Below are positions 25,912-52,985 of a stretch of 64,000 nucleotides of DNA, piece after piece; the first letter of the stretch is position 1; every line of letters starts with the position of its first letter. The notes below the pieces were generated by a model. The model made no database searches, was not told the origin of the DNA, and saw nothing but the letters and a program-made list of their open reading frames with translations. The DNA lies in assembly GCF_002252565.1 (NCBI RefSeq), contig NZ_NPML01000019.1:1-64000 (forward strand), read 5' to 3'. The translations under genes were made by a program, and so were the position numbers. The DNA is from Petroclostridium xylanilyticum (GTDB lineage Bacteria; Bacillota; Clostridia; SK-Y3).

Positions 25912-25915
25912 GTTA

Positions 25916-30189: not shown

Positions 30190-30194
30190 GCCTC

Positions 30195-30539
30195 TCATTC
30201 CTCCTTTACTTCATATTCTTTTGCCACATCAATGGCATAGTGGTGATAGCCGGTATCGTCCTCATGGCCTATATATCGCCTATCGGTAATGGTAAAGCCC
30301 GCTTGAAGCAATGTGTTAACTATCTGGTTTTTGCGGGCAGTGTAGTTTCCCTTTATAAATAAAGACAACCGTACCTCCTGGGTTTCAGCCTGAGGCCGGT
30401 TGTCTGCAAAAACCTCAAATGTATCTGTCATCGGGGTAATGACAAGGTACCCATCCGGCGGTACACCGCTAAACTCTCCGGTTTCAATGGGGATGCCCAA
30501 AACATCCAATAACGAATTTAATTCTGACAATATGCTCAT
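30195..30539 (-). CDS. tail completion / minor structural protein
   Basis: 114 residues from the ATG at 30539, which overlaps the stop of the gp10-like gene (ATGA). The sequence (LNSLLDVLGIPIETGEFSGVPPDGYLVITPMTD ... FIKGNYTARKNQIVNTLLQAGFTITDRRYIGHEDD) is like DUF3168/tail-completion proteins that finish the tail top in HK97-type phages. It is in the normal position between gp10-like and major tail genes. Confidence 0.8.
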   Translation of the reverse strand: MSILSELNSLLDVLGIPIETGEFSGVPPDGYLVITPMTDTFEVFADNRPQAETQEVRLSLFIKGNYTARKNQIVNTLLQAGFTITDRRYIGHEDDTGYHHYAIDVAKEYEVKEE

Positions 30540-31193
30540 ATACGACCCAACTCCTGTTCCAGTCTTGATTTCATTGCTTCGATGCAAGACTTCCTCGAAG
30601 CCGATTTTCCAGGCTTCAGAAAAGGTCTTGGAGGCTGCCCGGACTTGCCGTATTCGATAATATTAGCGATTTTTGCGTTGCTTTCCCCGTCTTTTCTTGG
30701 CTCCGAAAAGCCGATTTTAATATTGTGGTTTCCATCCCTATCCTGCTTGGTAGGAGAGAGTCCCAGAGCATTTACCAGTTCACCGGTTGCTCTGGACGGA
30801 TATTTAGTACCGCTTCCGATAACTGTATTTGTCAAGTGAAAAATGGACCTTTTTATAATTAAATTTTACCCCCCTTAAAGATGACATTAGTGTAAATAAT
30901 TAACATTAACATGTTCCTTTCACATAGGGAAAAAACTTTTTCAAGAATCCAGTTGACAACAAGCCTCCCCTCGATGATTAGCCAGCCGATGGGGCCAGCC
31001 CCCACCCCCTCGAAGTATGGCTATGAAGTTCGAGCATAGAGGGAGATGGGCGGCTGGCGCCTTAACAGGCTATCATACAGGAACCTCTCATTGTAAACCG
31101 CACTTAAAAAACTTTTTTCTCCCGAGTTTCAGGTAGCCTTAAATAAACTTCTTAAACTATTCACCACCCCTTCTTATGACATGGTTGTTAAAA

Positions 31194-31964
31194 TTATTGT
31201 TTCTGCATCCATTCTCTTGTCTCTTTGAGCCTGAATGAGTTACCGTTCATATTCACTATGTAAGCTTTGTGAGTTAGTCTGTCAATCATTGCAGCTGTCA
31301 TGACAGGATCCTTAAATATCTCTCCCCACCTTTCAAACGATAAATTAGTAGTTATAATTGTTGATTTTCTCCCGGCTCTTAATGATAGATTGGTAAACAG
31401 CAGTTCAGATCCTTCCTTATCAAAGGAAATGTAACCTAGTTCATCTGCTATAACCAGATCATATTTCTCAAACCTATTTTCAAAGGCCCGCAAGCTTTTC
31501 TCTGAACGGCTCTCTTTAAGCTGGTTTATCAGTATAGGCACTGCCGTAAAAAGCACCTTATAGCCTTTAAGGCAAGCTTTTATGCCCAATCCTATCGCAA
31601 GATGGGTTTTACCTGTACCGGGATTCCCTGCGAGTATCACGTTTTGACCGGTAGATATAAATTCAAGAGAACTTAGCGTCTTAAGTTTCTTTTGGGCATC
31701 CTCTGGTAAATCCTCAACCTTTAAATCTTCAATATATTTTTTATACGGGAAACCGGCAAGCCTTATCCTGTTCTGCTTTGCATGTTCTTGCCTTAGATCA
31801 TGCTCCCTCTCTAATAGCCGTAATAAATACTCTTCATAGCTTACATCTCTTGTACTTGATTCTTTTGCCTCCTCTTCGAAGTATTTCCTTATGGCTGGAA
31901 GTCTTAAAAATGTTGCATACCTTTCTATATCCTTATACATTTCCTTCTTATCTTTTATACTCAT
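31194..31964 (-). CDS. istB: IS21 helper ATPase IstB
   Basis: 256 residues. The AAA+ core has Walker A GNPGTGKTHLAIGLG (about 113-127), Walker B LVIADELGYISFD, and sensor motifs up to MIDRLTHKAYIV. IstB assists IstA in target selection by ATP-driven assembly on DNA. The start overlaps the istA stop by four bases, the normal coupling in IS21. Confidence 0.95.
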   Translation of the reverse strand: MSIKDKKEMYKDIERYATFLRLPAIRKYFEEEAKESSTRDVSYEEYLLRLLEREHDLRQEHAKQNRIRLAGFPYKKYIEDLKVEDLPEDAQKKLKTLSSLEFISTGQNVILAGNPGTGKTHLAIGLGIKACLKGYKVLFTAVPILINQLKESRSEKSLRAFENRFEKYDLVIADELGYISFDKEGSELLFTNLSLRAGRKSTIITTNLSFERWGEIFKDPVMTAAMIDRLTHKAYIVNMNGNSFRLKETREWMQKQ

Positions 31965-33288
31965 ATAATTACTGTCTCCTTCGTAAATTCTTCAGAAGAA
32001 GTGGGTATCAGATATTTAAATTTTTCAAGCATTTCCTCAGCTTTTGCAGTTATTTCACAGACTTTGGCATTATATTCTGCGCTGCTTCCTGTTAAGGTTA
32101 CATCCTGTGAGCGGTTGCAAATTGCCTTTATCTTTTCGGTCGTTACATCAAGAGGGCTTATCTTTTCTAAAGCTGAAATTGCTTCTTCAACTTCTTCTAT
32201 ACTTTTTTGTGAAATTAATTCCAGCAACTCTATGAATTGCTTCTCCCTTTTGATATAATACCTACTGTAGATTTGTTGAAGCCTGGGATCTGCCTGATGC
32301 ATTGCTGTGCTGCTGGCTAGAGCTCCCGGCTTTCTCTTTAATGTGTTCACATAATGCTCTATCTTGATATCCCACTCGTTAAACCCATATCTCCTGTTAT
32401 GTTCTGCTATTTTGACCCCTTCATAAAAACATAGGATTTTGTTTGAATATACCTTGGTAAATATTTTTTTACCTACGTACATGTCAGGGACAGAATAATG
32501 ACATGTATCAATAATTATAGTGGAATACTTATCAACACGGGGCTCTACAATCCTTGCAGCATCATACATAGGCATTTTGGGTAATAACCCCTCACGTTCT
32601 TCTTCCAATATTTCAAAAGCAGTCTTATTATCGTTAAGCTTTTGTTTCCTGTTATTCAATTGGTCACATACTTTTTCAAGATATTCATTTGCTTCCTCTA
32701 TTGAACTGAAATGATCCTTAAATGCGAATGCTTTCCTGCGGATGTACTCCACACTCCGCTCCACATGGCCTTTCTCATTTCCGGAACGTATGTTGCAGAA
32801 CCTGAATTTAAAGCCATAGTATATGGACAGCCTTAGTAATGCCTCAGTAGGCTCCTTCTCATGTGTCCCAACAAATTTTTTTACTGCAACCCTTGTGTTG
32901 TCATAAACCATTGTCCTGTAAACCCCGGATATCTTATCAAAAAACAATGCATGAGATTCTTGAAAACATGCCGTATCCTGCTTTGTAAATAATCTTGCAT
33001 ATCTAAAATTACCCTTTGCACTTGTAAAAGTAGACAACTGCAAAACTTTATACTCATTATCTATGTATAATTTTACTTCACCCCAATCAAATTCACATAC
33101 ATCTCCTGGATCATATTCAGCTTTTATATAGGCCTCAGCTCCTTTGCTCAATAGATTATTTACTGTATTTACAACAGTGGCAACTCCCTTGCTATAGCCT
33201 TTTTTGCTTTATTTTCCAAATATGCTGCTATGATAATTTGCTGCTTCTGGCTCAACTTAATCAACTCCTCTTGCCCCCTCTTATGCAT
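31961..33288 (-). pseudogene. istA: IS21 transposase IstA with deleted N-terminal region
   Basis: From the ATG at 33288 a helix-turn-helix start (QEELIKLSQKQQIIIAAYLE to KKAIARE) is read, then the frame breaks. The sequence resumes in another frame as VVNTVNNLLSKGAEAYIKAEY and runs through an intact DDE domain (CEFDWGE, MVYDNTR, GNEKGHVERSVEY) to 31961. Compared with the intact IstA at 58005, roughly 60-90 residues of the DNA-binding region are missing. A TTG-started 396-residue product is possible but would lack the end-binding domain. Confidence 0.8.
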
Positions 33289-33535
33289 GTTTTACATAAG
33301 AGAGTTTACCTGTCAGGGGGGGATTTTTCAATTATAACCGGGGTCCATTTTTAGATTAGCATAAACACGATAACCGACTGCAGGTTGGACTTTACTTTGG
33401 AAAGTACCACTTCTCCACCTGCTTCTAATACCTTGGGTATGATTTCGTCTGTTCTTTCTCCAAGTCTGGAAAGCCTGAGCAGGAACTCTTCCGGGATTTT
33501 AACTTCCACCTTAGCCACGTTGCAGCCACCTCCTT

Positions 33536-33871
33536 TTATGCTTTGCTTGATTTCACCTTCTCCGCAAGCACCTCAATATACATTCCGCGCCCCTTCACAT
33601 CCTCTACACTTACAATGTTGTACCTGCCATCGCTGCAAACGAGTACAAGATCTGTGGTAACTTCCAGGTTAGGTATCTTACGGAAGCGAAACAGGGCAGA
33701 CGCCTGCGAAAACGCCGCCCTGTTTGCCCATTTTTCACTGCCATGCCTGTCTTCCTTGTATGCCCTTACCGAAGCGAGAATGACATCACCTTTTTCAGCA
33801 AAACCCTCACTGTCCTTAACCGGGTTGGTTGAGATGATATCCACGAAAGTGCTCATTTTCCCGAAACTCAT
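33536..33871 (-). CDS. phage head-tail adaptor (head closure) protein
   Basis: 111 residues from the ATG at 33871, which follows GGAAGGAGG. The fold is the SPP1 gp16/HK97 gp9-like Phage_H_T_join barrel (STFVDIISTNPVKDSEGFAEKGDVILASVRAYKE ... DLVLVCSDGRYNIVSVEDVKGRGMYIEVLAEKV). It closes the portal after DNA packaging. The next gene downstream is the IS-split gp10-like gene. Confidence 0.88.
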   Translation of the reverse strand: MSFGKMSTFVDIISTNPVKDSEGFAEKGDVILASVRAYKEDRHGSEKWANRAAFSQASALFRFRKIPNLEVTTDLVLVCSDGRYNIVSVEDVKGRGMYIEVLAEKVKSSKA

Positions 33872-33925
33872 CAAATGCCTCCTTCCAAATGTTATTTTAT
33901 ACAAAAATAAAGTTGCGCTTTCCTC

Positions 33926-33967
33926 TTGATTTTAATAATATTAAGGTATAAACTTAATATTATTAAA
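33926..33967 (+). promoter_or_regulatory. promoter with 15-bp perfect palindrome for the plus-strand cassette
   Basis: TTTAATAATATTAAG (33931-33945) and its complement (33953-33967) enclose 7 bases directly upstream of the ribosome site. TTGATT (33926-33931) and TAAACT (33949-33954) are 17 bp apart, so the palindrome covers the core promoter. It is a likely operator for the helix-turn-helix protein that follows. Confidence 0.65.
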
Positions 33968-33979
33968 GGAGGTGCTCAT

Positions 33980-34282
33980 ATGGCCATCGAAATTGTTCCT
34001 GATTGGATGTCAAACCTCGAAGATGAAGATCTGGTGTTCATTAAAAATTTTCTTCAAGCCTCTGGATCTCTTAAGGAAATCGCTCGCCAATACGGAGTAA
34101 CGTATCCCACAGTACGCCTGCGGCTTGACAAATTAATTCAAAAAATAAAAATCACTGAAGATACAGAAAACGATCCATATATCGCACTGATTAAGCGATT
34201 GGCAGTAAATGACAAAATTGATTTTGACACTGCCAAAATCCTAATTAATGAGTACAAAAAAATAAAGGAGGCAGTACAGTGA
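33980..34282 (+). CDS. DUF2089-type helix-turn-helix regulator
   Basis: 100 residues from the ATG at 33980 (AAAGGAGGTG upstream). The helix-turn-helix is SLKEIARQYGVTYPTVRLRLDKLIQKI (about 31-57). It is one of only two plus-strand genes inside the phage structural region and carries its own promoter, so it behaves as a moron expressed from the lysogen. Its stop overlaps the start of the membrane gene. It probably controls its own cassette through the palindrome at 33931-33967. Confidence 0.8.
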   Translation: MAIEIVPDWMSNLEDEDLVFIKNFLQASGSLKEIARQYGVTYPTVRLRLDKLIQKIKITEDTENDPYIALIKRLAVNDKIDFDTAKILINEYKKIKEAVQ

Positions 34283-34623
34283 GAAATATTGCAATTTTAG
34301 TTCCTGCAGCACTCGTCATCTTTGCGGGTTTTATATTGCTACAGATTTTTCTGTCTAAAAATGATAATAAATGGTTGGGATTAATGCTTCCTGTCATTTG
34401 CTTCTGTGTCGCACTTGCCGGTTCGGGTTATCAAATCTATGAATGGTCAGCCACCACCTATGGAAATTCAAACACCAGTGCCTTTGGATGGGTAGGCGCG
34501 ACAGCCGCTTTCTTCTTTACCTACAATATCCCAACTGTCATTTTGCTTGTGATTTACTTCGCCTGCAGGGGAAAACAAAGGCGTAAAAAGGCTCTTGACA
34601 AAATGAACGTGCAGGATTTATAG
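34279..34623 (+). CDS. small membrane protein paired with the DUF2089 regulator
   Basis: 114 residues from a GTG that overlaps the regulator stop (GTGA). Three membrane segments are visible: about 4-26 (IAILVPAALVIFAGFILLQI), 33-53 and 78-98. It ends in a basic tail (CRGKQRRKKALDK). No catalytic motif is seen. DUF2089 regulators are often next to small membrane proteins, so a regulated envelope function carried by the prophage is likely. Confidence 0.75.
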   Translation: MRNIAILVPAALVIFAGFILLQIFLSKNDNKWLGLMLPVICFCVALAGSGYQIYEWSATTYGNSNTSAFGWVGATAAFFFTYNIPTVILLVIYFACRGKQRRKKALDKMNVQDL

Positions 34624-34626
34624 CCT

Positions 34627-34947
34627 TTACATTCCCCATTTCCGGTCGAGGCGGAGGAGCATGTTTACTGTATTCCATACCTGCTGTCCTGCCTGTACGC
34701 TATCACCGAAAAAACCGGCCGTCGAGCCATCCCTGCTTTCGTAGAAATGGCTCGACAGCATGATGACAGCCTGCTCAGTAGTAGGCGGCATAAGATTTTC
34801 CGAATACCAACCCTCGGATACGTGCTGGTAGCTCTCGGCATAGGAAACGGCGGCGCGGATGTACCCTTTCAGTAAATCGTCATCCTCGTTATGCTCTAGA
34901 ACAAGGTTTGCCTTGACCTTCGGAAGCAAGCTGTCAATCACGCTCAT
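34627..34947 (-). CDS. head-tail connector protein (gp6-like)
   Basis: 106 residues, helical: IDSLLPKVKANLVLEHNEDDDLLKGYIRAAVSYAESYQHV, then TEQAVIMLSSHFYESRD. This is the Phage_connect/gp6-like family that forms a ring under the portal. It lies 14 bases after the capsid gene, in the canonical order. Its 3' end abuts the converging plus-strand cassette with three bases between stops. Confidence 0.9.
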   Translation of the reverse strand: MSVIDSLLPKVKANLVLEHNEDDDLLKGYIRAAVSYAESYQHVSEGWYSENLMPPTTEQAVIMLSSHFYESRDGSTAGFFGDSVQAGQQVWNTVNMLLRLDRKWGM

Positions 34948-34961
34948 GCCCGCACCTCCCT

Positions 34962-36164
34962 TTATGACGCCTTCTGCTGTAGTATCTTAACTGCCTCGGC
35001 CAGCACCAGCTTTCCGTCCACGCGCTGGGTTGCCATGAAACCTACCTGCCCGGTAGCGGCATAAAGCTCGTTAAGGCGTTTGAAGACCCTGCCCTGGCGG
35101 TCTGCTACCCAATAGTAGGAAAAATCTCCGAACACGATCGTCTTGGCTCCGGCGGCAATGGCAGGCATGTAGGCCGATGTCCTGACCGGGCGGTTGAGGA
35201 TGGTGTCCGGTGTTCCGGCGGCAACGGAAGGCTGCCAGAGATACTGACCGTTGTTGTCTTTAAGCTTCCTTATGGCCTTTATTGTAGCATCGTTCATAAT
35301 GAATACAGCGTTCCTGCGATAAGGAGACTTTATGCTGTAGAACAAGTCCATGATCTCGTCAAGAGTAATGGCTGTCGCGCTTGCCGCGGTCACTCCCACC
35401 TCGCCGCCTCCGTTATTGGCCAAAATTCCCGTGGGCTTGCCGGAACCGTCGCCGACAAAAAAAGCTTCCTCCTCTTTGGCCCCGATACGGCGGGCGAACT
35501 CCCTGGCGATATACTGCTCAAGGTTGAATACGCTGTCATTTAAGAGTTCCTCGGACACCTTGATCATGGTCGCCAGCTTATATGCGCCGATGGATACCTG
35601 TGCAAAGGAGTCGTCGCTTTCCGGAATCTGACCTTCCTCATCCACCCAGGATGCAGTGCCCTTGCTTGCCACCACAGGAATTTTCTTGTCGCCGCTGGAC
35701 GTGGTAATAACATTGGCAATCTGCCTAAAGATATTCTCCTCCTCCAGCGCTTCCACAAGAGTACGCTCAAAGTCATCGGGGACAAGATATCCACCTTCGG
35801 TGTCCTCTCCGATCTGCAGCGCGTTATGCACATCATATTTGCGCCTGCCGCGCATCATGTTCCAGAAAGACTGCCTGTACTCATCGCTGGCACGTCCGGT
35901 TTTTTCATTATTGCCAGATATGGAAGCGGGTTTGTCTGTAATGGGGATATTCAGCGGTTTTGACAGTTCCAGATCTATGGCAGCCTGACGCTCGAGCCGT
36001 TCGATTTCTTTGCCTAGTGCAATTACGTCGGCTTCCATTTTCTCATAAGTTGCGGTGTCCTCCGGTGAAAGCAGCCCGTCGTTCCCGCGTTTGCTGTCGA
36101 GAAAAGCCTTAGCAGCTTCCCATACTTTCGCGCGTTTCTCACGCAGTTCCAGTATTTTGCTCAT
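34962..36164 (-). CDS. HK97-family major capsid protein
   Basis: 400 residues from the ATG at 36164 (AGGAGG upstream, inside the intron's 3' exon). An N-terminal scaffold-like delta helix (about 1-100: coiled coil EKMEADVIALGKEIERLERQAA) is followed by the HK97 fold (EGGYLVPDDFERTLVEALEEENIFRQIANVITTSSGDKKIPV ... QPSVAAGTPDTILNRPV). It assembles the head and is presumably trimmed by the protease encoded upstream. Confidence 0.95.
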   Translation of the reverse strand: MSKILELREKRAKVWEAAKAFLDSKRGNDGLLSPEDTATYEKMEADVIALGKEIERLERQAAIDLELSKPLNIPITDKPASISGNNEKTGRASDEYRQSFWNMMRGRRKYDVHNALQIGEDTEGGYLVPDDFERTLVEALEEENIFRQIANVITTSSGDKKIPVVASKGTASWVDEEGQIPESDDSFAQVSIGAYKLATMIKVSEELLNDSVFNLEQYIAREFARRIGAKEEEAFFVGDGSGKPTGILANNGGGEVGVTAASATAITLDEIMDLFYSIKSPYRRNAVFIMNDATIKAIRKLKDNNGQYLWQPSVAAGTPDTILNRPVRTSAYMPAIAAGAKTIVFGDFSYYWVADRQGRVFKRLNELYAATGQVGFMATQRVDGKLVLAEAVKILQQKAS

Positions 36165-36188
36165 AATCAAATCCTCCTTACGGTTTTA

Positions 36189-38281
36189 ATCGAGTAAGGT
36201 AAAGCCGAAGTAATTTGCTTCGGCTTTATCCTTCTCACAGAACCGTACGTACGGGCCTCGTATACGGCTCCTGATAAATCTCAGTCACTATTGCTTATAA
36301 TGATGCAAAATGCCGACATTATATTTTTCCAGGTTTATTAGTCCTAGTTCATCAAACCAGCTGTTCGGCAACGCCATGCTTATTAAAGGACTGGCTGAGT
36401 TTTTCCATGTGGTCATGGAAATTTTCTCAAATGTACCCTTGTAACCGCGTCTTCTTAGCATCTTGTGCAGTCCCTTCCAGGTTTTCCATTCCTTCATTTT
36501 CTTCATTCGCAGCCGGCGCCTTATCCATCCCATCAGTTCTTTGAATATTCCCTTACAGTTGGCTATCCGGAAGTAGTTTGCCCATCCCCGCAATACGGGA
36601 TTTAGGAGTTTGACCATCTCCTCTACGTTCATTCCGTGATTTCTGGGAGTCATCTCCCGTATCTTTTTCTTGAAACTTTTCAGTTTCTTGGGGCTAATTG
36701 TCACGTGCTTGGAGTAGATTACGAAGCCAAGGTAGGCTACACCCTTTTGGTTGTCAGTTAGGTGGGTCTTTCCCTGTTGACTACTAGTTATAATTCCTTT
36801 TCCAAGAACTCTGTAGCTATCTGCTGATATTTCTTTGCTTCCTGGTAGGTCCGGGCAAAGAGCAGTATATCGTCCGCGTAGCGGACGATTCTTATGCCAC
36901 GTTTCTTCATCTCCTGGTCGAATCTGTCCAGGTAGATATTTGTCAATAGGGGAGAGATAACTCCGCCTTGCGGGCTCCCCAAGTCTGTTTCTTCCCATGT
37001 TCCGTCTTTCATTACTCCAGCAGTCAGAAATTTCTTTATCAGTCTCAGGATACTTCCGTCACTGATTCTACGGTTGACTCCTTCCAGGATTAGTTCATGG
37101 TCCAGCCGGTCAAAGCATTTGGATAGGTCCATGTCGACGACATGATTCAGTCCGTATTTGTTTATGAACATTTCCGCCTTGGCTACTGCCTGGTGACAGG
37201 AGCGCCCAGGTCTGTATCCATAGCTTGATGGGTGAAAGTCGGGTTCAAAGATTGGTTGTAGGATGTTTAGGAGGGCTTGTTGGACTATCCGGTCCCTTAC
37301 TGTGGGTATACCCAGCGGGCGTTTACTGCCGTCCGCTTTGGGTATTTCTACCCGCAGCACCCGTTGGGGTTCGTCAATGCCGGTTTTGTGTTCGTGTTGA
37401 AGTTGGCTTTGCCTTTCTTGCCGGTTTTGGCCGCGGGCTTCCACGGTCTCCCCGTCTACTCCGGGGGCGCCATTGTTGGCTTTAACGGCTTTGTATGCTT
37501 TTTCCAGGTTGTCCATCCGGTATACTTTGTCTATTAGGCTATACCATTTCTTCAATCACTTCACCCCATTTCGCTATGCTTCCTCTGTAGTTCAGGATTT
37601 CGCGCCGGTTCCTTCATGTGCTTTCCAGGCGTCTCTAGCTCATTGGCAATCTTACCTCTCCAGCCACTCTACTCCGGCTGAGCGGACGTACTGCCCAGCA
37701 GGTTCGTCACCCCCGGTTCAGCCGTTCCCTTTGGCCTTCCAGCCAAAGTTGTCTTCTCTTCCCGTCCTTTGTCTACTTTGGTTGCATTCTTTGATTTATC
37801 TTCCTCCCTTCGCAAGTACAGCTGCTTTTGGCTTGCTGTACCCCACTGCAACTGGGTGCAGTGTCCTCCCGGTTTTGTCCTCCGGTCTGTTACCAGCTTT
37901 CATTGGTCGAGAGTTTGTCACTACTACGGAGTCATCTGCCACCCCACATCACTTCGTCCCGCACTTGTGTTTCCACTTGTTTGGGCCTACCCTCTCTAAG
38001 GGATGATGCCGGGCTTCTCCGGTTAAGTTTACCTGCCTGAACCTGAACGCATCCGTCTTAACCCCTCAGGTTATCCAGCTTTCGGGCTTTCCCACTTTAT
38101 GCAAGGTTACCCACCTGACGAGCCAACCTCGGTTCGCTTGCGCTATGTTCCAGATTCCCCCTTCAGCTTCCTTCAGACCTCACCGTTGGCCAGTGACGCC
38201 CTTGCTTACAGGTTGTCTTCCCGCTGGTTAGGCGACAGGGTTTCTTTCAACCCATCGGCTCAGTAAACATGCCGGACGAAC
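36189..38281 (-). mobile_element. group IIC-type intron 1 (maturase broken)
   Basis: The predicted 5' end GTTCGTCCGGCATG at 38281 resembles the start of intron 2 (GTGCGCCCGGCATG). The 3' end shows domain V (GAGCCGTATACGAGG ... CGTACGGTTC, around 36238-36269) and domain VI with a bulged A, ending CTTACTCGAT at 36189. It inserts right after the T-run of a terminator-like stem in the last codons of the protease gene. Precise removal would let the protease frame end as ...LFLLKP and bring its stop next to the capsid ribosome site. Confidence 0.8.
36288..37555 (-). pseudogene. ltrA: intron-encoded reverse transcriptase/maturase, two lesions
   Basis: The 5' part (37555-36788) has reverse transcriptase motifs including the active-site YADD (in RIVRYADDILLFAR) and stops at TAA (36788-36790) where a lysine codon is expected (LEKEL-K-LVVN). 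A single A is then missing from GGGAAAAGACC near 36769-36772. The remaining 180 or so codons continue in another frame from KTHLTDNQKGVAYLGFVIYS through the maturase domain to 36288. Removing both lesions restores a roughly 420-residue protein. Confidence 0.88.
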
Positions 38282-38996
38282 ATAAAAAAAGCCGCTTTTC
38301 AAGCGACTCAATCGGGGTTCCTTTTGGTTTTTCTTTTGGTTTAAGCTTTTGCAGGATGGAATTTGTCACTGCCTGCCTGCTGAAAATCATTCCTCCTGAT
38401 ACTTCAAATTCGGATGGGAAAGATTCATCCTCCATAAACAGAATGCCATCGGCAAAGCCAAGTTCCACCGCTTTTCTTGCGTTAAACCAGCTTTCCGCAT
38501 CCATAAGGTGCGATATTTTTGTCCGGGAAAGTCCGGTTTTCAGCTCATAGGCGTTGATGATGGATTCCTTTATTTCCTCCAGCATTGCGATAGCTTTCTC
38601 CATTTCCTCTGTATCACCTATGGCTATTGTCATTGGGTTGTGGATCATCATCATGCTGACAGGTGACATAAAAACGTCGCCACCAGCCATGGCAATGACC
38701 GAAGCGGCGCTGGCCGCAATACCGTCAATTTTTACGGTTACTTTGCCTTTGTAATCCATCAGCATGTTGTAAATTTGATTGGCTGCAAATATATCGCCGC
38801 CCGGGCTGTTGATCCAGATCGTTATATCACCCTCTCCGGACAGCAGCTCTGATTTGAATTGTTTGGGGGTCACCTCGTCTCCCAGCCAGCTTTCCTCGGC
38901 AATAGGTCCGTCAAGATATAATGTCCGGCTGCCATCATCATTTTGTATCCAGTTCCAAAATCGGCGAACCGGCCTTGGTTTTTGTGACTTGTTCAT
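38247..38996 (-). CDS. ClpP-type prohead protease
   Basis: 249 residues as read through the intron boundary. The catalytic Ser is in GIAASAASVIAMAGG (about residue 96), and the His is in MMMIHNPMTIAIG (about 120). It cleaves capsid scaffold during head maturation and lies between portal and capsid genes, overlapping the portal stop by four bases. The last 11 residues (CSSGMFTEPMG) are intron sequence; the natural tail after splicing would be LKP, giving 241 residues. Confidence 0.92.
   Translation of the reverse strand: MNKSQKPRPVRRFWNWIQNDDGSRTLYLDGPIAEESWLGDEVTPKQFKSELLSGEGDITIWINSPGGDIFAANQIYNMLMDYKGKVTVKIDGIAASAASVIAMAGGDVFMSPVSMMMIHNPMTIAIGDTEEMEKAIAMLEEIKESIINAYELKTGLSRTKISHLMDAESWFNARKAVELGFADGILFMEDESFPSEFEVSGGMIFSRQAVTNSILQKLKPKEKPKGTPIESLEKRLFLCSSGMFTEPMG
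38284..38308 (-). terminator. terminator-like stem at the intron 1 insertion site
   Basis: AGTCGCTT and AAGCGGCT form an 8-bp stem (one G-U) with a short loop and a seven-T run on the minus strand, lying in the last codons of the protease gene. Group IIC introns target exactly such stem-plus-T-run structures, and the intron begins three bases after it. Confidence 0.7.
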
Positions 38997-40258
38997 CTTT
39001 TTGATCCCTCCGTTTCAACATTGGTTTTGCCTGCAAATGCTCCAGCATCGGCAAGCTTGGTCATATTACCGTTGACGAGATACAGGTCACCGCCCAACTC
39101 CTCTGGGATCCGGTTCATGTCCTCAAGCTCGCGGATATCGTTGGCGCTCATCCAGCCGTTCTGGCGGGCTACAGCATAGCCATTCATGCGGCTTGCATAA
39201 TCCCCGCGCAGAAGGCCATCTACATTGAATTTGACAAAGTATGTCCGCTTCTCCGACGGTAAAAGCAGCGCTTTTTGGAGAGCCTGTTCCCAGCGCACCA
39301 CCCACGGGTCAAGCGTGTATTTGACAAATTCCAGAGACTGCTGCTCGATGTTTGAAAAGCTTGATTTTTCGAGGTCTCCTACCATATGGGGAGGCACGCG
39401 GAATATCCGAGCAATTTCGTTTATCTGAAATTTCCTTGTCTCCAAAAACTGTGCTTGTTCGGGCGGAATGCCAATTGGCTGAAACTTCATACCCTCTTCC
39501 AGAACTGCAATGCGGTGAGCGTTGGCACTGCCTTGATAGACAGCGTTCCAGCTTTCACGCACTTTTGCCGGATCCTTTAATACGCCGGGATGTTCCAGAA
39601 CGCCACCCGGATTTGCACCGTTGGCGAAGAAGGACGCACCGTACTCCTCGCAGGCGATGGCCATGCCTATGGCGTTCTTGGCCATCGCAATAGGGGAGTA
39701 TCCGATCAGCCCGTCAAAACCGAGTCCCGGGATGTGAAGCACCTCGTCACTTCGCAGGTATATAAGGCCTGCTTTTGGATTAACCTTGCTCTCATCGCTG
39801 TCCCGCCGGTAGGTGTAGTACAGTTCTCCGTTTGGAGCCCTGTCTACCGTCATTTTGTTTGGCAAAAGAGGATAAAGCGCCAGCACTCGTCCGGAACCGT
39901 CCCTGATAATCTGAGCGTAAGCATTTCCCCATAAAAGAAGATGACTCATCAGCGTTTCTCGGAACACGAATGAAGTCATCTCAGGATTTGGTTCGTCATG
40001 GAGCAGGTAATATAGCGGGTGGGTTAGCGCTTTTTCTTTGCCACCGTCTCCCTTGTACCGGTACACATGAAGCGGAAGTCCAGCGATGGCCTCGGCCAGT
40101 ATCCTTACACAGGCATACACTGCCGTTGTCTGCATGGCTGTCCGCTCATTGACAGTCTTTCCGCTGGATGTACCACCAAAGAAAAAGCTGTATGCATTGC
40201 CGAACAAGCTGTTTTTCGGCTTATCCCTTGCTTTGAATAAGCGGGAAAATACACTCAT
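38993..40258 (-). CDS. HK97-family portal protein
   Basis: 421 residues with the Phage_portal core: NERTAMQTTAVYACVRILAEAIAGLPLHVY at the start, HLLLWGNAYAQIIRD, then HPGVLKDPAKVRESWNAVYQG and RKFQINEIARIFRVPPHMVGDL. It forms the dodecameric DNA channel at one capsid vertex and docks the terminase. Four-base overlaps with both the terminase upstream and the protease downstream show a tightly coupled operon. Confidence 0.95.
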   Translation of the reverse strand: MSVFSRLFKARDKPKNSLFGNAYSFFFGGTSSGKTVNERTAMQTTAVYACVRILAEAIAGLPLHVYRYKGDGGKEKALTHPLYYLLHDEPNPEMTSFVFRETLMSHLLLWGNAYAQIIRDGSGRVLALYPLLPNKMTVDRAPNGELYYTYRRDSDESKVNPKAGLIYLRSDEVLHIPGLGFDGLIGYSPIAMAKNAIGMAIACEEYGASFFANGANPGGVLEHPGVLKDPAKVRESWNAVYQGSANAHRIAVLEEGMKFQPIGIPPEQAQFLETRKFQINEIARIFRVPPHMVGDLEKSSFSNIEQQSLEFVKYTLDPWVVRWEQALQKALLLPSEKRTYFVKFNVDGLLRGDYASRMNGYAVARQNGWMSANDIRELEDMNRIPEELGGDLYLVNGNMTKLADAGAFAGKTNVETEGSKR

Positions 40259-41889
40259 ATGATCAGCAGCCCCCTTTCATCATAAATTGATCCGTTGCGG
40301 TCATCTCCTCCATGCCTTAAAGCGCGGTCAAGCGCCATAATAAGCGCAACAGCGCCGTCTATTCTCTCGCTGGACTTTTCTTTATCAGGCTTTATGTTTC
40401 CGGCCGGATCGGTTTTGACAAAGATATTGTCCATCATCCATCTGAGCACCGGATGCCCGCCATGGGCGATGCGCTCCTCCAAAGTCAGCTTCATCAGCTC
40501 TTTTGTGGGCGGCGACATGTCCTTGAAGCCCTGACCGAAGGGAACAACCGTAAAGCCCATGCTTTCTAGGTTCTGCGTCATCTGCACCGCGCCCCAGCGG
40601 TCGAAGGCGATTTCTCTGATATTGTATTTCATGCCAAGCTCCTCAATAAAAGTCTCGATGAAACCATAATGAACCACATTACCCTCAGTGGTGTATAAAA
40701 AGCCCTGCCGCTCCCAAACATCATATGGCACATGATCCCGCCGCACACGCTGGTCGATATTGTCCTCTGGAATCCAGAAGAAAGGCAGGATCTGATATTT
40801 GTCCGATTCATCCAGCGGCGGAAACACCAGTACAAAGGCGGTAATATCGGTGGTGGATGACAGGTCAAGCCCGCCGTAGCAGATGCGACCGCGCAAGCTT
40901 TCCGCATCGACGGGGAAGGCGCACCTGTCCCATTTGTCCATAGGCATCCAGCGCACCGATTGCTTCACCCACTGATTTAAGCGGAGCTGACGGAATAAAT
41001 TTTCCTCTGCGGGGTTTTGCTTGGCATTTTCACAAGCCACCCTCAGTTTTTCGATGTCCACTGTAATGCCTAATGACGGATTGACCTTTCTCCACACCTT
41101 TTCACTTGTCCAGTTGTCAGTATCGGCTGCGCTGTAGATAACAGGGTAGAAAGTCGGATCTATCTTACGCCCCTGCAGGATATCCTCTGCCTTTTGATGC
41201 ACTTCCCAGCAGATGGAGTTCCTGTCTGTACCTGCCGTCGTGATCAGGAAAAACAGCGGCTGCTTCCTTGCATCGCCGGATCCGTGTAGCATTACATCAT
41301 AAAGATCCCGATTTGGCTGGGCATGAAGTTCGTCAAAAACCACACCATGGACATTTAAACCATGCTTCGTGTATGCCTCCGCTGAAAGCACCTGATAAAA
41401 ACTGCCTAGCGGTTTATATACCAGCCGCTTCTGCGACAGCATCGGTTTAATCCGGGACTTTAATGCCGGACACTGTTCCACCATGTCTACAGCAACGTCG
41501 AAAACAATGGATGCCTGCTGACGGTCAGACGCACACCCATAAACCTCGCCGCCATGCTCGAAATCGCCGCAGGTCAGGTATAGAGCAATTGCCGCCGCAA
41601 GCTCGCTCTTCCCCTGCTTTTTTGGGATTTCTACATAGGCGGTGTTGAACTGCCGGTATCCGTTCGGTTTCAAGACGCCGAATATATCCCGGACAATCTG
41701 CTCCTGCCAGTCAATGAGTTCAAAAGGCATCCCATACCATTCGCCCTTGGTATGCTTCAAGCAGTTTATAAAAGTAACAGCGGCATCCGCCGCTTCCTTG
41801 TCGTATCGGGAACCTTCGGCCATAAACTTTGTTGGTTTATACCGTTTTAACTTCCGCAGCTTTGCCGCCTCCTTTCTAAAATTGAACAA
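40255..41889 (-). CDS. terminase large subunit
   Basis: 544 residues, Terminase_1 (HK97) family. The ATPase half has the Walker A variant in YVEIPKKQGKSELAAAIALYL and Walker B VVFDELHAQ. The nuclease half begins GLDLSSTTDITAFVLVF and includes AFDRWGAVQMTQNLE. It drives DNA into the head. The frame opens at a TTG (41889) with no ribosome site. AAAGGAGG lies inside the first codons, so translation may really begin about ten codons later at a CTG (41859) or downstream; the start is uncertain. Confidence 0.93.
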   Translation of the reverse strand: MFNFRKEAAKLRKLKRYKPTKFMAEGSRYDKEAADAAVTFINCLKHTKGEWYGMPFELIDWQEQIVRDIFGVLKPNGYRQFNTAYVEIPKKQGKSELAAAIALYLTCGDFEHGGEVYGCASDRQQASIVFDVAVDMVEQCPALKSRIKPMLSQKRLVYKPLGSFYQVLSAEAYTKHGLNVHGVVFDELHAQPNRDLYDVMLHGSGDARKQPLFFLITTAGTDRNSICWEVHQKAEDILQGRKIDPTFYPVIYSAADTDNWTSEKVWRKVNPSLGITVDIEKLRVACENAKQNPAEENLFRQLRLNQWVKQSVRWMPMDKWDRCAFPVDAESLRGRICYGGLDLSSTTDITAFVLVFPPLDESDKYQILPFFWIPEDNIDQRVRRDHVPYDVWERQGFLYTTEGNVVHYGFIETFIEELGMKYNIREIAFDRWGAVQMTQNLESMGFTVVPFGQGFKDMSPPTKELMKLTLEERIAHGGHPVLRWMMDNIFVKTDPAGNIKPDKEKSSERIDGAVALIMALDRALRHGGDDRNGSIYDERGLLII

Positions 41890-46354: not shown

Positions 46355-47662
46355 TTAACCCTCCAGTTTGATGGCTTTTTCACCGGTGAATTCCTCCCAG
46401 CGCTTAACAGCTAAATCACAGTAAATAGGGGATAACTCCATCGCATAGCATTTACGCTCAGTCTGTTCAGCCGCAATTATAGTGGTTCCGCTGCCGGAGA
46501 ACGGTTCAAGCACAATACCGCCCTTATCGCTGTGCATTTTGATGCACCGCCATGGAAGCTCCACAGGAAACATTGCCGGATGTTCCTTGTTTGCCCGGAC
46601 AGTCGTCATCTCCCATATGCCAGCATAGCCCCATTTCTTGCGTTCTTCCTTTGTAAGCCGTTTCACAAATTTATAACTGTGTCCCGCAAAGGCTGAAAGC
46701 CATACATATTCCTGATCGTTATATTCCTCAACTTCTCCTTTATTGCTGAAGGCCGAAATATACTCATACTGCTGAACCGGCTTGTTTGAAACAAGGTGAT
46801 AAGGGCCTACACCAAAGTTCTGCCCTTGTTTCTTCCAAATGCGGATCCAGATAGGTCGGTAGCCGTTGTCCAAAAACATATTCACGCTGTACACGCTGGT
46901 TGGTTCAATAAACTGGGAGCCGGTTGCATATAAATCACCTAAATTCCAGCAGACAATATCTGCATACCTGCACAAATTTCTAATCACTGGGCGTACTGTT
47001 TCAAACCATGGCTCAATCCCGGCTTTTTCATATTCTTTACCTACCCCATATGGTGGGGAAGTCACTGCCATCTGTGCGTGACATCCGTCCATTAACTTCT
47101 CAAAATCCTCATCCTTCGTAGAGTCGCCGCACATCAAACGATGATTCCCAAGAAGCCAGATATCGCCCCGCTTCGTTACCGGCTCGTGCTGCATGATTTC
47201 CTCATGCGCTTTATCTATGTCAAAGCTGTCTTGTACCGCCTCTTTGGAATACCATCGGTTAAGCAGTTCGTCTATTTCAGAAGCGTCAAACCCTGTAAGC
47301 GAAACATCAAATGCACCTGCGTCCAACTCAGCCATTAGCTCGGCCAGTTTATTCTCGTCCCACTCTCCCTGAATCTTATTGAGGGCAAGATTAAGCGCTT
47401 TTTCTCTCTGCGGGTCAAGATCTACAACGACGCAGTCTATCTCAGTCTGTCCCAAGTCCAGCAAAACCTTTAAGCGTTGATGCCCGCCTACCACATTACC
47501 TGTCTTTTGGTTCCAGATAACAGGCTCCACATAGCCAAATTCCTCTATTGACCGTTTCAGCTTTTCATATTCCTTATCGCCGGGTTTTAAATCCTTGCGC
47601 GGATTGTAGACGGCGGGATTTAACAGCTCGGCTCTGATTTTCTGTATGTTCAAATCAACCAC
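46355..47662 (-). CDS. ParB-like domain fused to DNA methyltransferase (SPPY type)
   Basis: 435 residues, closely paralogous to its neighbour in the ParB part (NPRKDLKPGDKEYEKLKRSI, VGGHQRLKVL). The catalytic motif here is TSPPYGVGKEY and the AdoMet loop is LEPFSGSGTT. TSPPY suggests N4-cytosine specificity, so the two genes may mark different bases. The start overlaps the terminase small subunit stop by eight bases. Confidence 0.92.
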   Translation of the reverse strand: MVDLNIQKIRAELLNPAVYNPRKDLKPGDKEYEKLKRSIEEFGYVEPVIWNQKTGNVVGGHQRLKVLLDLGQTEIDCVVVDLDPQREKALNLALNKIQGEWDENKLAELMAELDAGAFDVSLTGFDASEIDELLNRWYSKEAVQDSFDIDKAHEEIMQHEPVTKRGDIWLLGNHRLMCGDSTKDEDFEKLMDGCHAQMAVTSPPYGVGKEYEKAGIEPWFETVRPVIRNLCRYADIVCWNLGDLYATGSQFIEPTSVYSVNMFLDNGYRPIWIRIWKKQGQNFGVGPYHLVSNKPVQQYEYISAFSNKGEVEEYNDQEYVWLSAFAGHSYKFVKRLTKEERKKWGYAGIWEMTTVRANKEHPAMFPVELPWRCIKMHSDKGGIVLEPFSGSGTTIIAAEQTERKCYAMELSPIYCDLAVKRWEEFTGEKAIKLEG

Positions 47663-48206
47663 CCCTCCTTGCCGTCAGGAGTTTTTCCATCACGTCGTCG
47701 TGGGGAGTTGCCCCTTTAAATTCGCTGGCGCAGTTTTCCCGCACGACTTGGTAAATCTGATACCAAAGGTTATTGGCCTGTTTCATGAAGCTTTGACTCA
47801 TGGCCACATAAGGTGACGGGATGGCATTGCCGGTCGTCGGATGCTTGGCAAGAAAGCCAAATTCGGTGATACATTCCTCGCACTGGATCCACCGCGCCAC
47901 GCTCTGGGCATACTGCTCTATAAGCTGCGCAGGTATAAGATGAACACACCTGCGTTCCTTAAGCCACTGCCATGTTTTTTCGTATATTTCCACCGCCAGT
48001 GTTGTTTTGCCGTTCTTCTGCTTTGCAGCAAGATAATCCCTCGGTGGCGGCATGCTCTGTCCTTCCAGTTCCACAGCGTCCGTAAACTCCATTACCATAA
48101 GCTTTCGCCTGCCAGGGTTTCCTTCCAAAATCTTATCCGCCAGCGGCTTTTTCTTCTGTCCTGCTCCAATACGCGCCCCGCCGCGGTTGGTACCGTCTTT
48201 TGCCAT
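47655..48206 (-). CDS. terminase small subunit (P27 family)
   Basis: 183 residues from the ATG at 48206, with GAGGTG seven bases upstream; 30 in-frame codons further up lack a ribosome site. The basic N-terminus (GGARIGAGQKKKPLADKILEGNPGRRKL) and the body (YEKTWQWLKERRCVHLIPAQLIEQYAQSVARWIQCEECI) match P27-type small terminases, which recognise the packaging start. It is separated from the large subunit by the methyltransferase and amidoligase genes, which is an unusual distance. Confidence 0.9.
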   Translation of the reverse strand: MAKDGTNRGGARIGAGQKKKPLADKILEGNPGRRKLMVMEFTDAVELEGQSMPPPRDYLAAKQKNGKTTLAVEIYEKTWQWLKERRCVHLIPAQLIEQYAQSVARWIQCEECITEFGFLAKHPTTGNAIPSPYVAMSQSFMKQANNLWYQIYQVVRENCASEFKGATPHDDVMEKLLTARRGG

Positions 48207-48326
48207 ACGCATCACCTCGATTCCTGTAAAAATAAACGGGGGATATACCCCGTTTGAAACTGCGATTTTTCGCGCGTGACCCCCCGCCCGTTGCACGAAA
48301 CATCTCCTCCAGAGATTTTGACCCCC

Positions 48327-48686
48327 CTACCGTCTTGCCCACCGCTCTCCTTCGCGGGCAGTGATCGAAGAGTGGCATTGCTTGCACAGACTCATAAGGT
48401 TGCTGTCTGCATTGGTTCCGCCTTTAGCCAAAGGAATAATATGATGCACCTCTTCGGCTGGCGTAAGCTTTCCGTACTTTTGGCACTCCTCGCAAAGCGG
48501 ATGCTCTGAGATATATCTGTCCCGGATGCGTCTCCATCTCCGGGCATAACGTTTTCTTGTTTGGGGACCTCGTTCATATTTGTTGTAATGAGCATTAACT
48601 TGCCTTTGATGCGTGTCACAGTACCTTCCGTCCGTTAACTCAGGACAACCGGGAAAGGAGCAAGGCCTTTTTGGCTTTCTTGGCAT
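48327..48686 (-). CDS. HNH endonuclease
   Basis: 119 residues. Zinc cysteines (CSFPGCPELTDGRYC, CEECQKYG, CKQC) surround the HNH core EEVHHIIPLAKGGTNADSNLMSLCKQCHSS. HNH nucleases next to the small terminase assist genome cutting during packaging in HK97-type phages. AAGGAGGTGG precedes the ATG. It is the first gene after the promoter-terminator leader at 48709-48812. Confidence 0.93.
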   Translation of the reverse strand: MPRKPKRPCSFPGCPELTDGRYCDTHQRQVNAHYNKYERGPQTRKRYARRWRRIRDRYISEHPLCEECQKYGKLTPAEEVHHIIPLAKGGTNADSNLMSLCKQCHSSITAREGERWARR

Positions 48687-48708: not shown

Positions 48709-48745
48709 TAAAAAAAGCCCTCGCGGGTTCATCCCATGAAGGCTT
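48709..48745 (-). terminator. leader terminator (attenuator) before the HNH-packaging operon
   Basis: On the minus strand AGCCTTCATGGG pairs imperfectly with CCCGCGAGGGCT and is followed by seven T. It lies between the promoter at 48768-48812 and the HNH gene, so late transcription must pass it. Confidence 0.85.
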
Positions 48746-48767
48746 ATTCATAACTTTTCACAATACC

Positions 48768-48812
48768 ATTATATTTGGCTTTTTACTGAATTTCATCTCA
48801 TAAAAATCTCAT
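48768..48812 (-). promoter_or_regulatory. late phage promoter, copy 1
   Basis: Two direct repeats ATGAGAT (48806-48812 and 48795-48801) separated by four T lie exactly 21 bp upstream of TATAAT (48768-48773). There is no normal -35. The identical layout occurs at 51045-51089, so the repeats are a probable activator site. Confidence 0.75.
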
Positions 48813-48865
48813 CTGGAATACTAAACAGCACAATTGTTTTTCACCCATGGCATCCTGCCGTTATA

Positions 48866-49051
48866 TTACTTATCCGAAATATACCGCTGCATATCGGCTG
48901 GTAAAGCTGCAAGCAAAAGATAAGCTTTTTTCCTGTCTTTCTCTAAATCTTGGGTGCTTTTATAGAAGGAACATTTATCTTGCTGACACTTGCGTACAGT
49001 CAGGATATTGCAGCCATTTCTTCCATTACTGCCAAAACATTTATCGCACAT
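48866..49051 (-). CDS. small Cys-rich phage protein
   Basis: 61 residues with five cysteines (MCDKCFGSNGRNGCNIL, later VRKCQQDKCSFYKS), a small zinc-ribbon-like fold, ending LLAALPADMQRYISDK. GGAGGAAGG precedes the ATG. It lies between the two promoter-terminator cassettes, and intron 2 is inserted just upstream, 26 bases before its start codon. Function unknown; Cys-rich peptides of this kind are common ahead of packaging genes in clostridial phages. Confidence 0.78.
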   Translation of the reverse strand: MCDKCFGSNGRNGCNILTVRKCQQDKCSFYKSTQDLEKDRKKAYLLLAALPADMQRYISDK

Positions 49052-49076
49052 CTTTCCTTCCTCCCGTTTTATGGCA

Positions 49077-50990
49077 ATCGAGTAGAAGCTGAATAATTAT
49101 TTTATTCAGCGTCCTCTCACACCACCGTACGTACCGTTCGGTATACGGCGGTTCATTAAGATTTAATGTACAATTAGATACCTCTTTGATAAACTCTTGT
49201 AACCTATGTCTTCGAAGTATTTATTTGTAAGAGTCATATTGAGTATTTGGCTATTGGATATTCTCCAGTAGCCTTTTCTCGTATTAGCGTATATCCAGGC
49301 TTTCTGTTTTTCTAATCCTAATTTTACTAGATTATCGTATTTTGTTTTTATCTTCTTCCATTGTTTCCATATACATGCTCTTAGTCTACGCCTTATCCAT
49401 TCGTCAAGGGCTTTCATTATTCTTTTCGCATCTGCTAATCCAAAGTAGTTAACCCATCCTGTCGTTATCTGATTCAATCTACGTATTCTATATTCCATAC
49501 TTATTCCCTTGTTTCGATTGGTTATTTCTCTTACTTTTTCCTTAAGCCTTTTGATGGATTTTTCATGGATTCTTATTCTTACTTCGTTTTCTTTTGTGTA
49601 AAACGAGAATCCTAAGAACTTTCTTTTCCATGGTCTATCTACAGCACTTTTTGCTTCATTGACTTTTAGTTTTAATTTGGTTTCTATGAATTTCTTTATG
49701 CTTTTCATTACTCTGTTTCCTGCTGACCTGCTTTTTACGTATATGTTGCAATCATCTGCATACCGACAGAATTTATGCCCTCTTCTTTCTAGTTCTTTGT
49801 CTAGTTCATCTAACATTATGTTTGCTAATAGCGGACTTAATGGCCCTCCTTGTGGTGTCCCTTCTTCTGTTGCTACTTTGATTCCATTTATCATTACTCC
49901 TGATTCTAAGTATCTTCGTATCAGCTTCAGTACTCTTTTGTCTCCTATCCGCTTTTCTAATTTAGTCATCAGTATGTCGTGGTTTACTCTGTCAAAGAAC
50001 TTTTCTAAGTCTATATCTACTACCCATGTGCATCCTTCGTTTATATATACTTCTGCGGCTGTTACTGCATCTTTTGCACTGCGTCCTGGTCTGAATCCAT
50101 AGCTATTTTCCGAGAATGTATGGTCGTATATTCCACTTAGTATTTGGGCTATTGCTTGTTGTATTAGTCTGTCTAGTACTGTAGGTATTCCTAGTAGTCT
50201 TGTTCCTCCATCTGGTTTTGGTATTTCTACTCTCAGCACTGGTTGTGGTTTATACTTTCCTTCCAGTAATTGTTGCTTTATGGTCGGCCAGTTTTCTTTG
50301 AGATACGGTAGAAGTTCATCTACTTCCATCCCATCGACTCCATGGCTTCCTTTATTTGCAACTACTCGCTTGTATGCTTCTTTCATGTTTTCTCGGTCTA
50401 GTATCATTTCAAGCAGATTACTGGTGTATCTTTGTACATTGTTTCTTCTATCTTTTGACGCCGATGATATACTATGCACTTCCGCTGTCTCTTGAAATTC
50501 CATTTCTTGATTGAGCGGATAGCCTCTTTGTTGAGTTGTCTGCAGTCTTTGCATATCTTTCGAGTTCATAAGATTTCCAAAACCTCCTAATGTTCGGTCC
50601 TTCCTTATCTATTCATGACTAGATAAGTACTATGACCTCTGCTGACTTCTCAAGGTTCAGCCATACATCACTGTATGGGTTGTCATTTCGGAGTTCACTT
50701 TAATGACTCGTCCTTGAGACCTCCCCGGGTAAGAACGATAACCTTCATCTCGTCTATCTGCCAGATTTACTGTATGGAGTTCGGGTAGTGTTGGACTTCG
50801 TTTTGTTTAGCAAACTCGTCCGCCCCAATTCAGCCTCTTATCTGGTTTTTGTTCATCAGACCGAGATTTTGCCTACCACTTCCTTCAGATTCCACCTCGC
50901 GATGGACACCCTTGCGGTTCAGCTAGTGGTTCCCACTACCAAGCCCACAGCGGACTTTCACCGCCTAGTTATCGCCCATGCCGGGCGCAC
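49077..50990 (-). mobile_element. group IIC intron 2 (intact)
   Basis: The 5' end GTGCGCCCGGCATGGGCG is at 50990. Domain V (GAACCGCCGTATACC ... GTACGGTGG) and domain VI (CTGAATAAAATAATTATTCAG) precede the end CTACTCGAT at 49077. The intron encodes an uninterrupted maturase. It starts directly after a terminator stem and its T-run (50991-51014), the standard target of class C introns. Confidence 0.9.
49163..50569 (-). CDS. ltrA: group IIC intron reverse transcriptase/maturase
   Basis: 468 residues. The reverse transcriptase fingers and palm contain IDLEKFFDRVNHD and the catalytic FCRYADDCNIYV. A maturase (X) domain follows (IRRLNQITTGWVNYFGLADA, RIRRRLRACIWKQWKKIKTK). There is no C-terminal HNH endonuclease, as is typical for class C, which uses terminator stems as targets. 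It stabilises splicing and drives retrohoming. It might also act on the related intron 1, whose own maturase is dead. Confidence 0.95.
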   Translation of the reverse strand: MNSKDMQRLQTTQQRGYPLNQEMEFQETAEVHSISSASKDRRNNVQRYTSNLLEMILDRENMKEAYKRVVANKGSHGVDGMEVDELLPYLKENWPTIKQQLLEGKYKPQPVLRVEIPKPDGGTRLLGIPTVLDRLIQQAIAQILSGIYDHTFSENSYGFRPGRSAKDAVTAAEVYINEGCTWVVDIDLEKFFDRVNHDILMTKLEKRIGDKRVLKLIRRYLESGVMINGIKVATEEGTPQGGPLSPLLANIMLDELDKELERRGHKFCRYADDCNIYVKSRSAGNRVMKSIKKFIETKLKLKVNEAKSAVDRPWKRKFLGFSFYTKENEVRIRIHEKSIKRLKEKVREITNRNKGISMEYRIRRLNQITTGWVNYFGLADAKRIMKALDEWIRRRLRACIWKQWKKIKTKYDNLVKLGLEKQKAWIYANTRKGYWRISNSQILNMTLTNKYFEDIGYKSLSKRYLIVH

Positions 50991-51014
50991 TAAGAAAAAG
51001 CCCCGAAGGGCTTA
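50991..51014 (-). terminator. leader terminator of promoter copy 2 (intron 2 target)
   Basis: AAGCCC-TTCG-GGGCTT forms a compact stem with a UUCG loop, followed by TTTC on the minus strand. It lies 30 bases past the -10 element of promoter copy 2 and was used as the intron 2 insertion site. Confidence 0.88.
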
Positions 51015-51044
51015 TGAATCGTTATGTCATTTTTCCACAGTATC

Positions 51045-51089
51045 ATTATATATTTGATTTCTGTGTTTTGCATCTCATAAAAATCTCAT
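51045..51089 (-). promoter_or_regulatory. late phage promoter, copy 2
   Basis: ATGAGAT repeats at 51083-51089 and 51072-51078, four T between them, and TATAAT at 51045-51050, again 21 bp downstream. Repeat-to--10 spacing is the same as in copy 1. It is followed by a leader and terminator, then (without the intron) the small Cys-rich gene. Confidence 0.75.
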
Positions 51090-52793: not shown

Positions 52794-52985
52794 CTACTTC
52801 CCGTATAAAAGCAGTGCCAGATGATTAAGTGCCTTGTCTTTCCTGCGGTACACCTGTGCTCTTTCAAGAAACAGCTTCTCTCCGATGTTTGCTACGGCTT
52901 CCGTCTTGCTCACATCATTAACAAAAAATTCTGTCAATATAAACTGTTCTTCCTCCGACAAGGCTTCCCAGGCAGGCTTGAACCT
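52794..52985 (-). pseudogene. 3' relic of a phage sigma-like / late activator gene
   Basis: The frame from about 52985 to the stop at 52794 reads PAWEALSEEEQFILTEFF, then ERAQVYRRKDKALNHLALLL. This is the C-terminal helix-turn-helix of the sigma70-like (ArpU/RinA-style) regulators that normally sit between replication and packaging genes. Its 5' part is gone and it runs directly into the primase gene in another frame, so a deletion joined the two genes. Confidence 0.6.

Follow-up and report, generated by a model that had tools for sequence, protein, structure and literature searches.

Introduction

Ltr-type proteins drive late transcription in many temperate phages of Firmicutes, by a mechanism known only as "activation". 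They are described as activators that late promoters require, and that of S. aureus phage phi13 requires its Ltr protein, its repeats and a TATA box (PMC13123087). This study concerns a 64,000-nucleotide stretch of Petroclostridium xylanilyticum DNA (contig NZ_NPML01000019.1, positions 1 to 64,000; hereafter the window), in which a minus-strand cassette of direct repeat, -10 box and leader terminator occurs twice. The cassettes are late promoters of a siphovirus-type Firmicutes prophage. They are Ltr-like with a conserved leader attenuator, a variation on a known promoter type. Like the systems of RinA (phi11), Alt (TP901-1), phi13 Ltr and A118 gp66, they lack a -35 box and have direct repeats ahead of the -10 box, and the operon under the promoter's control encodes packaging, structural and lysis functions. 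The window family differs from these systems in being only a distant sequence relative and in its site sequence. Repeat-activated late promoters of the Ltr, RinA and Alt kinds were already known, and to our knowledge Ltr proteins are the only phage proteins reported to be needed for late activation.

Two other kinds of phage regulator invite comparison. In lambda cII-type activation, recognition of the -35 is replaced by direct repeats that lie on one helix face around that position, an arrangement like that of the window cassettes, although cII differs from the window activator in protein fold and site. We know of no conserved leader terminator at cII promoters. The proteins 21Q and AlpA, which have a fold like or related to sigma region 4 (R4), are loaded where a promoter carries a -10-like element close to its start, and they then get past a terminator further downstream (PMC6606751, PMC9371919). 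With both, the window family shares a regulator gene beside the promoter, a -10-like sequence near the start and a downstream intrinsic terminator; its activator is predicted to have a sigma-R4-like DNA-binding fold, and with 21Q it also shares a direct-repeat site. By analogy, the shared set of parts suggests a shared job. The 21Q site TGAGCA and the AlpA site GGGACG resemble TGAGAT and TGGACG, a resemblance rather than a test. The window promoter differs from those of 21Q and AlpA in having no -35 box and seemingly depending on an activator, its second hexamer lies 8 bp from the -10 box, closer than that of AlpA (-1 to +5), and antitermination is here inferred.

Results and Discussion

Two cassettes in the window

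The original prediction, made from the window alone, described the same minus-strand layout at two places, with exact 21-bp spacing, TATAAT and leader terminators, and all of these parts are present:

51072..51089, minus strand: cassette 1 direct repeat ATGAGAT-TTTT-ATGAGAT, putative activator half-sites with an 11-bp period (pattern search; conserved in relatives)
51045..51050, minus strand: cassette 1 -10 box TATAAT, 21 bp past the proximal half-site (pattern search; spacing conserved)
51037..51042, minus strand: cassette 1 second -10-like hexamer TACTGT, 2 nt past the -10 box (position conserved)
50994..51013, minus strand: cassette 1 leader intrinsic terminator, AAGCCCTTCGGGGCTTTTTC (hairpin plus T-run; conserved)
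48795..48812, minus strand: cassette 2 direct repeat ATGAGAT-TTTT-ATGAGAT (pattern search)
48768..48773, minus strand: cassette 2 -10 box TATAAT, 21 bp past the proximal half-site (pattern search)
48760..48765, minus strand: cassette 2 second -10-like hexamer TATTGT (sequence)
48710..48745, minus strand: cassette 2 leader intrinsic terminator (hairpin 48745-48716 plus T-run)

The exact repeat has these two matches and no third in the 64 kb, where the chance expectation for the 14-base pattern is far below 1. With up to 3 mismatches the window holds 6 matches, below the chance level from 100 shuffles. The full pattern of repeat, exact 21-bp gap and TATAAT occurs only in these two cassettes in the whole 3.86-Mb genome. 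Chance origin of the repeat is excluded by this uniqueness together with conservation in relatives.

A -35 box had been said to be lacking, which is essentially right: at 17-bp spacing the best candidates are ATGAAA (4/6 matches) in copy 2 and ATGCAA (3/6) in copy 1. Taking transcription to start 7 nt past the -10 box, the half-site pair spans about -51 to -34 and overlaps the -35 position. The leader had been put at about 30 bases ending in a terminator. The terminator is there, but the length needs revision, with the hairpin beginning at about +26 in cassette 1 and +17 in cassette 2 and a predicted terminated RNA of about 40-50 nt. The cassette 1 hairpin (51013-50998) reads AAGCCC-TTCG-GGGCTT and is followed by the T-run. 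Its stem energy is -8.4 kcal/mol; the stems of cassette 2 and of locus L029 among the relatives are stronger, at -18 to -22 kcal/mol.

The cassettes lie 2.3 kb apart in the window, but this is not their native spacing and is secondary, because a group II intron sits between the copies. With the intron subtracted they are 363 bp apart, compared with 360-363 bp in 11 IMG/VR contigs that carry both copies. The pair did not originate with the intron or by recent duplication, since intron-free relatives have both copies; recent duplication is also contradicted by the sequence between half-sites and -10 box, which differs between the copies. In L060 two cassettes (at 3470 and 6291) are 2.8 kb apart, with a different insert that is not at the intron position.

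Conservation of sites and spacing

A pattern search of viral contigs returned 14 IMG/VR contigs, of which 13 were true relatives and one (L010) a chance match. Relatives of the activator described below were gathered from three sources: viral contigs, a set of one genome per species (80 loci), and two complete phages. They are 43-100% identical and come from Clostridia, Bacilli and Negativicutes. Nearly all have, directly past the activator stop codon, a half-site, four bases, a second half-site, 21 bp and a -10 box. TANNNT stands at exactly +21 from the proximal half-site in 56/61 distinct regions, and other offsets are rare. A second TANNNT stands at exactly +29 in 54/61, again anchored on the proximal half-site only. 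This second hexamer, absent from the original prediction, has the consensus TANNRT, lies 2 nt past the -10 box and spans roughly -4 to +2 relative to the inferred start. The half-site-anchored count is the unbiased one, as the position matrix used a pattern that fixed several hexamer positions.

Lack of conservation of the repeat pair or its spacing in related phages had been named as the refuting outcome, and it did not occur. The 21-bp spacing is constant but the exact repeat sequence varies, as expected of co-evolving sites. The half-sites fall into subgroups with ATGAGA(T/C), with AGTGGAC, and with ATGAGTA or ATGTCCA paired with a CGTGGAC-like site. Direct repeats are perfect in the ATGAGAT and AGTGGAC classes; in the other classes the repeat unit survives at the proximal half-site only. 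GTGTCCA or ATGTCCA half-sites were seen in L107, L112, L117, L120, L124 and L126. In pairwise comparison, relatives with more similar recognition helices also have more similar half-sites (partial rho 0.70, permutation p 0.0005), whereas identity of the N-terminal half shows no such relation (-0.01). This makes a good case that the neighboring protein binds the half-sites.

The complete phage NatCom_11393 has the site precisely at the boundary of the replication genes and the HNH/terminase/structural/lysis operon. The first late gene varies between phages, being mostly HNH, while the terminator stays. In L112, L117, L120 and L124 the next gene starts like S-adenosylmethionine synthetase, not HNH. 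Duplication of the cassette is a feature of the clade, and close tandem promoters arose also in other lineages (L095, L103, L104). Close tandem operator-promoter copies with no gene between them were found in L095, L103, L104 (3467, ~3545), L092, L093, L097, L100 and L102. In such tandems only the last copy retains the terminator.

The activator gene and its protein

Intact relatives carry a gene for a 151-aa protein whose stop codon is followed after 2 nt by cassette 1, and in most other relatives the activator gene directly abuts or overlaps the site. The protein matches the PHROG transcription regulators phrog_248 and phrog_36. Its match to the ArpU family is weak: the TIGR01637 score of 27.3 bits is under the curated cut-off of 43.1, although 33/40 family members match TIGR01637 at E<=0.01. 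The hhalign probability was 14% to RinA and under 1% to A118 gp66 and Alt. From these matches, the protein is a distant relative of the ArpU/RinA late activators that would work like them, not a certified member. In the AlphaFold model (pLDDT 85.7), a pair of long N-terminal helices precedes a C-terminal sigma-region-4 domain (residues 87-150). Neither sequence nor fold identified the protein as a Q homologue: a sequence search of solved structures gave nothing significant and the fold search listed sigma region 4 domains, which is not evidence of absence. Fold search with VIA gave a middling Z of 8.5 over ~60-67 residues, and the top rows were consistently sigma region 4.

The claim of a late promoter activated through the repeats is well supported by an ArpU/RinA-like neighbor at the early/late boundary, the conserved 21-bp spacing and the covariation of helix and site. 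Its layout also matches that of Ltr-dependent late promoters (PMC13123087). Given the analogy with the Ltr experiments and the protein-site covariation, activation via the repeats may be called close to established. The window itself holds only part of the activator gene:

52794..52985, minus strand: ArpU/RinA-like activator remnant, residues 89-151 only (98% identical to intact 151-aa relatives)

A deletion junction near 52985 fuses a primase/helicase open reading frame (54907-52934) to the activator tail. The deletion took out a VRR-NUC-like gene and the activator N-terminus, both present in relatives. A search of the same genome for a second intact activator found none, the best hit being 29% identical with E 0.24. 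The activator gene is truncated, and therefore the module in the window is probably silent unless complemented.

The leader terminator

A GC-rich stem with a T-run behind it was found in 64/71 distinct leaders compared with 2.6% of dinucleotide shuffles. The background in equivalent windows past other long open reading frames of the same loci was 13.7%. Counted from the inferred start, the median T-run onset is +47 (range 39-68). Four of the seven leaders without a terminator belong to the first promoter of a tandem pair, with the terminator past the second promoter; in the other three the stem is shortened or the T-run broken. Among 30 aligned terminators, 10/13 stem pairs show two-sided changes that preserve pairing. 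Relatives that carry a toxin-antitoxin insert upstream, with its own terminator, still have leader terminators.

An Rfam search found no RNA family in the two window leaders and matched only the intron there. The leader before the hairpin is 16-25 nt long, and alternative pairing reaches 7 bp in copy 2 and 2 bp in copy 1. A riboswitch or T-box attenuator was excluded, as there is no Rfam match and the leader is too short for an alternative fold. A leader peptide (ATG AAA AAx TGy) was also excluded, the start codon being ATC, GTG or frame-broken in several members.

Other Ltr-type phages

The leader terminator is strongly conserved in the family, and also stands past unrelated Ltr-type promoters. 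In phi13 the T-run of a terminator lies at ~+48 of the late promoter; the published reporter extended to +50 (PMC13123087). The rinA-terS region of phi11 has repeats with an 11-bp period (TGGCAGT-N4-TGGCAGT). Two TANNNT hexamers (TATTAT-GA-TAGTGT) follow at +20 and +28 of the repeat, and a terminator lies at ~+87. TP901-1 has TATACT-TG-TATTAT with a terminator just upstream of terS, and phiadh has TATATT-GT-TATTGT with a terminator upstream of its HNH gene. A118 has repeats and TAAAAT at matching spacing (+20), followed by an early hairpin without a proper T-run. The pneumococcal MM1 and phage 85 regions were examined and added nothing clear.

RinA, Alt and A118 loci were surveyed for terminators in fixed windows. 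Terminators within +300 were found in 21/21 RinA loci (background 17%), 37/68 Alt loci (24%) and 24/41 A118 loci (10%). By comparison of sequences, the predicted leader terminator and double -10 recur with regulators that have no obvious sequence relation, though not with all. The Ltr paper PMC13123087, to which this statement is limited, mentions neither feature.

Activation and proposed antitermination

We lean toward the view that one protein both activates and antiterminates, in the manner of Q. The half-sites cover the -35 position, and therefore a sigma-R4-like domain bound to them could substitute for the missing -35 contact. Unaided polymerase would stop at the intrinsic terminator about 45 nt downstream. 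The same activator would load onto polymerase at the promoter, where the second -10-like hexamer perhaps makes sigma pause and holds polymerase for loading. The loaded protein would then carry polymerase past the leader terminator and the later terminators of the 30-kb late operon. It would work as phage 21 Q or AlpA does, at an activator-dependent promoter. The anatomy, its conservation, the protein-site covariation and the terminator covariation are observed directly; antitermination and pausing we infer.

Several points weigh against this proposal. 21Q and AlpA bind in the -10/-35 spacer (PMC6606751, PMC9371919), whereas in the window 21 bp separate the end of the sites from the -10 box downstream. 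No Q protein or antiterminator was among the structural matches listed for the model, which does not exclude one. In a few family members (L060, L120 and L124) the T-run is weak or missing, and 0/41 A118-type leaders have a terminator within +120. Claims about binding and transcripts in the window family come from comparison. Finally, a single terminator directed at early read-through could hardly sit elsewhere than downstream; this placement is nearly forced, because the promoter overlaps the activator gene.

The chief rival, which we consider rather unlikely, is activation only. Recruitment would be of the conventional Ltr type, and the terminator would insulate the late genes from early read-through or basal firing while the strong promoter leaks through. 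It agrees with the description of Ltr proteins as activators needed by late promoters (PMC13123087), with the overlap of promoter and activator gene end, which leaves no space for an upstream insulator, and with tandem promoters that have no intervening gene and a single terminator before the gene. However, most stems are strong, as in cassette 2 and L029, though that of cassette 1 is weaker, and strong stems would forfeit most of the output of a promoter that serves the most-expressed genes. Cassette 2 has a terminator although that of cassette 1 would already be enough to insulate the operon, and so do the leaders of loci with the toxin-antitoxin insert and its extra upstream terminator. Further terminator-like sites lie within the late operon on the coding strand. 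Insulation accounts for the position of a single terminator, not for the redundant ones.

That the activator only initiates, and a separate phage or host factor antiterminates, seems improbable. Phage-like elements elsewhere do combine the two functions: a 2024 study of the gene transfer agent of Caulobacter reports transcriptional activation together with antitermination. The small Cys-rich protein between the cassettes has no explained role. Most terminator-bearing family members, however, have no Cys-rich gene behind the activator, and the short leader holds no conserved extra RNA element. That no phage protein other than Ltr is reported as needed for late activation also speaks against a separate factor. 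A conserved terminator and start region with little room beyond a short RNA would also fit a terminated 40-50 nt leader that is itself the product, a small RNA from an activated promoter, but this is very improbable, as there is free sequence variation from the A-rich start up to the stem, stems change by compensation with no conserved loop, and late genes follow directly in the same orientation.

More tentatively than for the window family, combined activation and antitermination by one protein may extend to Ltr-type regulators in general, which would replace the -35 contact, load via the second -10-like element and pass the leader terminator. The terminator stands at a near-fixed distance, and it shows compensatory upkeep in dozens of phages and recurs past several unrelated Ltr-type promoters, so Ltr proteins may act on elongation too. 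If so, Gram-positive phages would gain a counterpart to lambdoid late antitermination, and a single promoter serving a 30-kb operon with internal terminators would be explained.

The group II intron and neighboring genes

The original prediction placed a gene directly past each leader. This is correct for the HNH gene past cassette 2 but not for the Cys-rich gene, which is directly preceded by the intron and not by the cassette 1 leader.

49077..50990, minus strand: group II intron, 1,914 nt, immediately past the cassette 1 terminator (Rfam group-II-D1D4-3, D1D4-1; empty site in relatives)
49163..50569, minus strand: intron-encoded reverse transcriptase/maturase (Pfam RVT_1, GIIM; TIGR04416)
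48866..49051, minus strand: 61-aa Cys-rich protein between the cassettes (PHROG match, phrog_27214)
48327..48686, minus strand: HNH endonuclease, first gene past cassette 2 (Pfam PF01844)
47655..48227, minus strand: terminase small subunit (Pfam PF05119; phrog_83)
18629..41889, minus strand: remaining late operon with TerL, portal, protease, capsid, tape measure, tail and endolysin (PHROGs)

Class IIC introns are known to insert directly 3' of intrinsic terminators. The insertion 3' of the cassette 1 hairpin is an independent hint that this hairpin acts as a terminator.

Terminator-like hairpins, consensus matches only, were noted on the coding strand of the late operon at 48255-48234, 41922-41893, 38309-38289 and 34759-34718 (minus strand). 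An MqsA/SocA (Panacea)-type toxin-antitoxin-like pair (52550-51110, minus strand) separates the activator remnant from cassette 1. L021, L024, L042, L054, L057, L058 and L059 have inserts at this position too, and the spot between activator gene and cassette 1 looks like an insertion hot spot. The prophage end carries two large serine recombinases (integrase-like) in tandem (18304-16724 and 16309-14741, minus strand).
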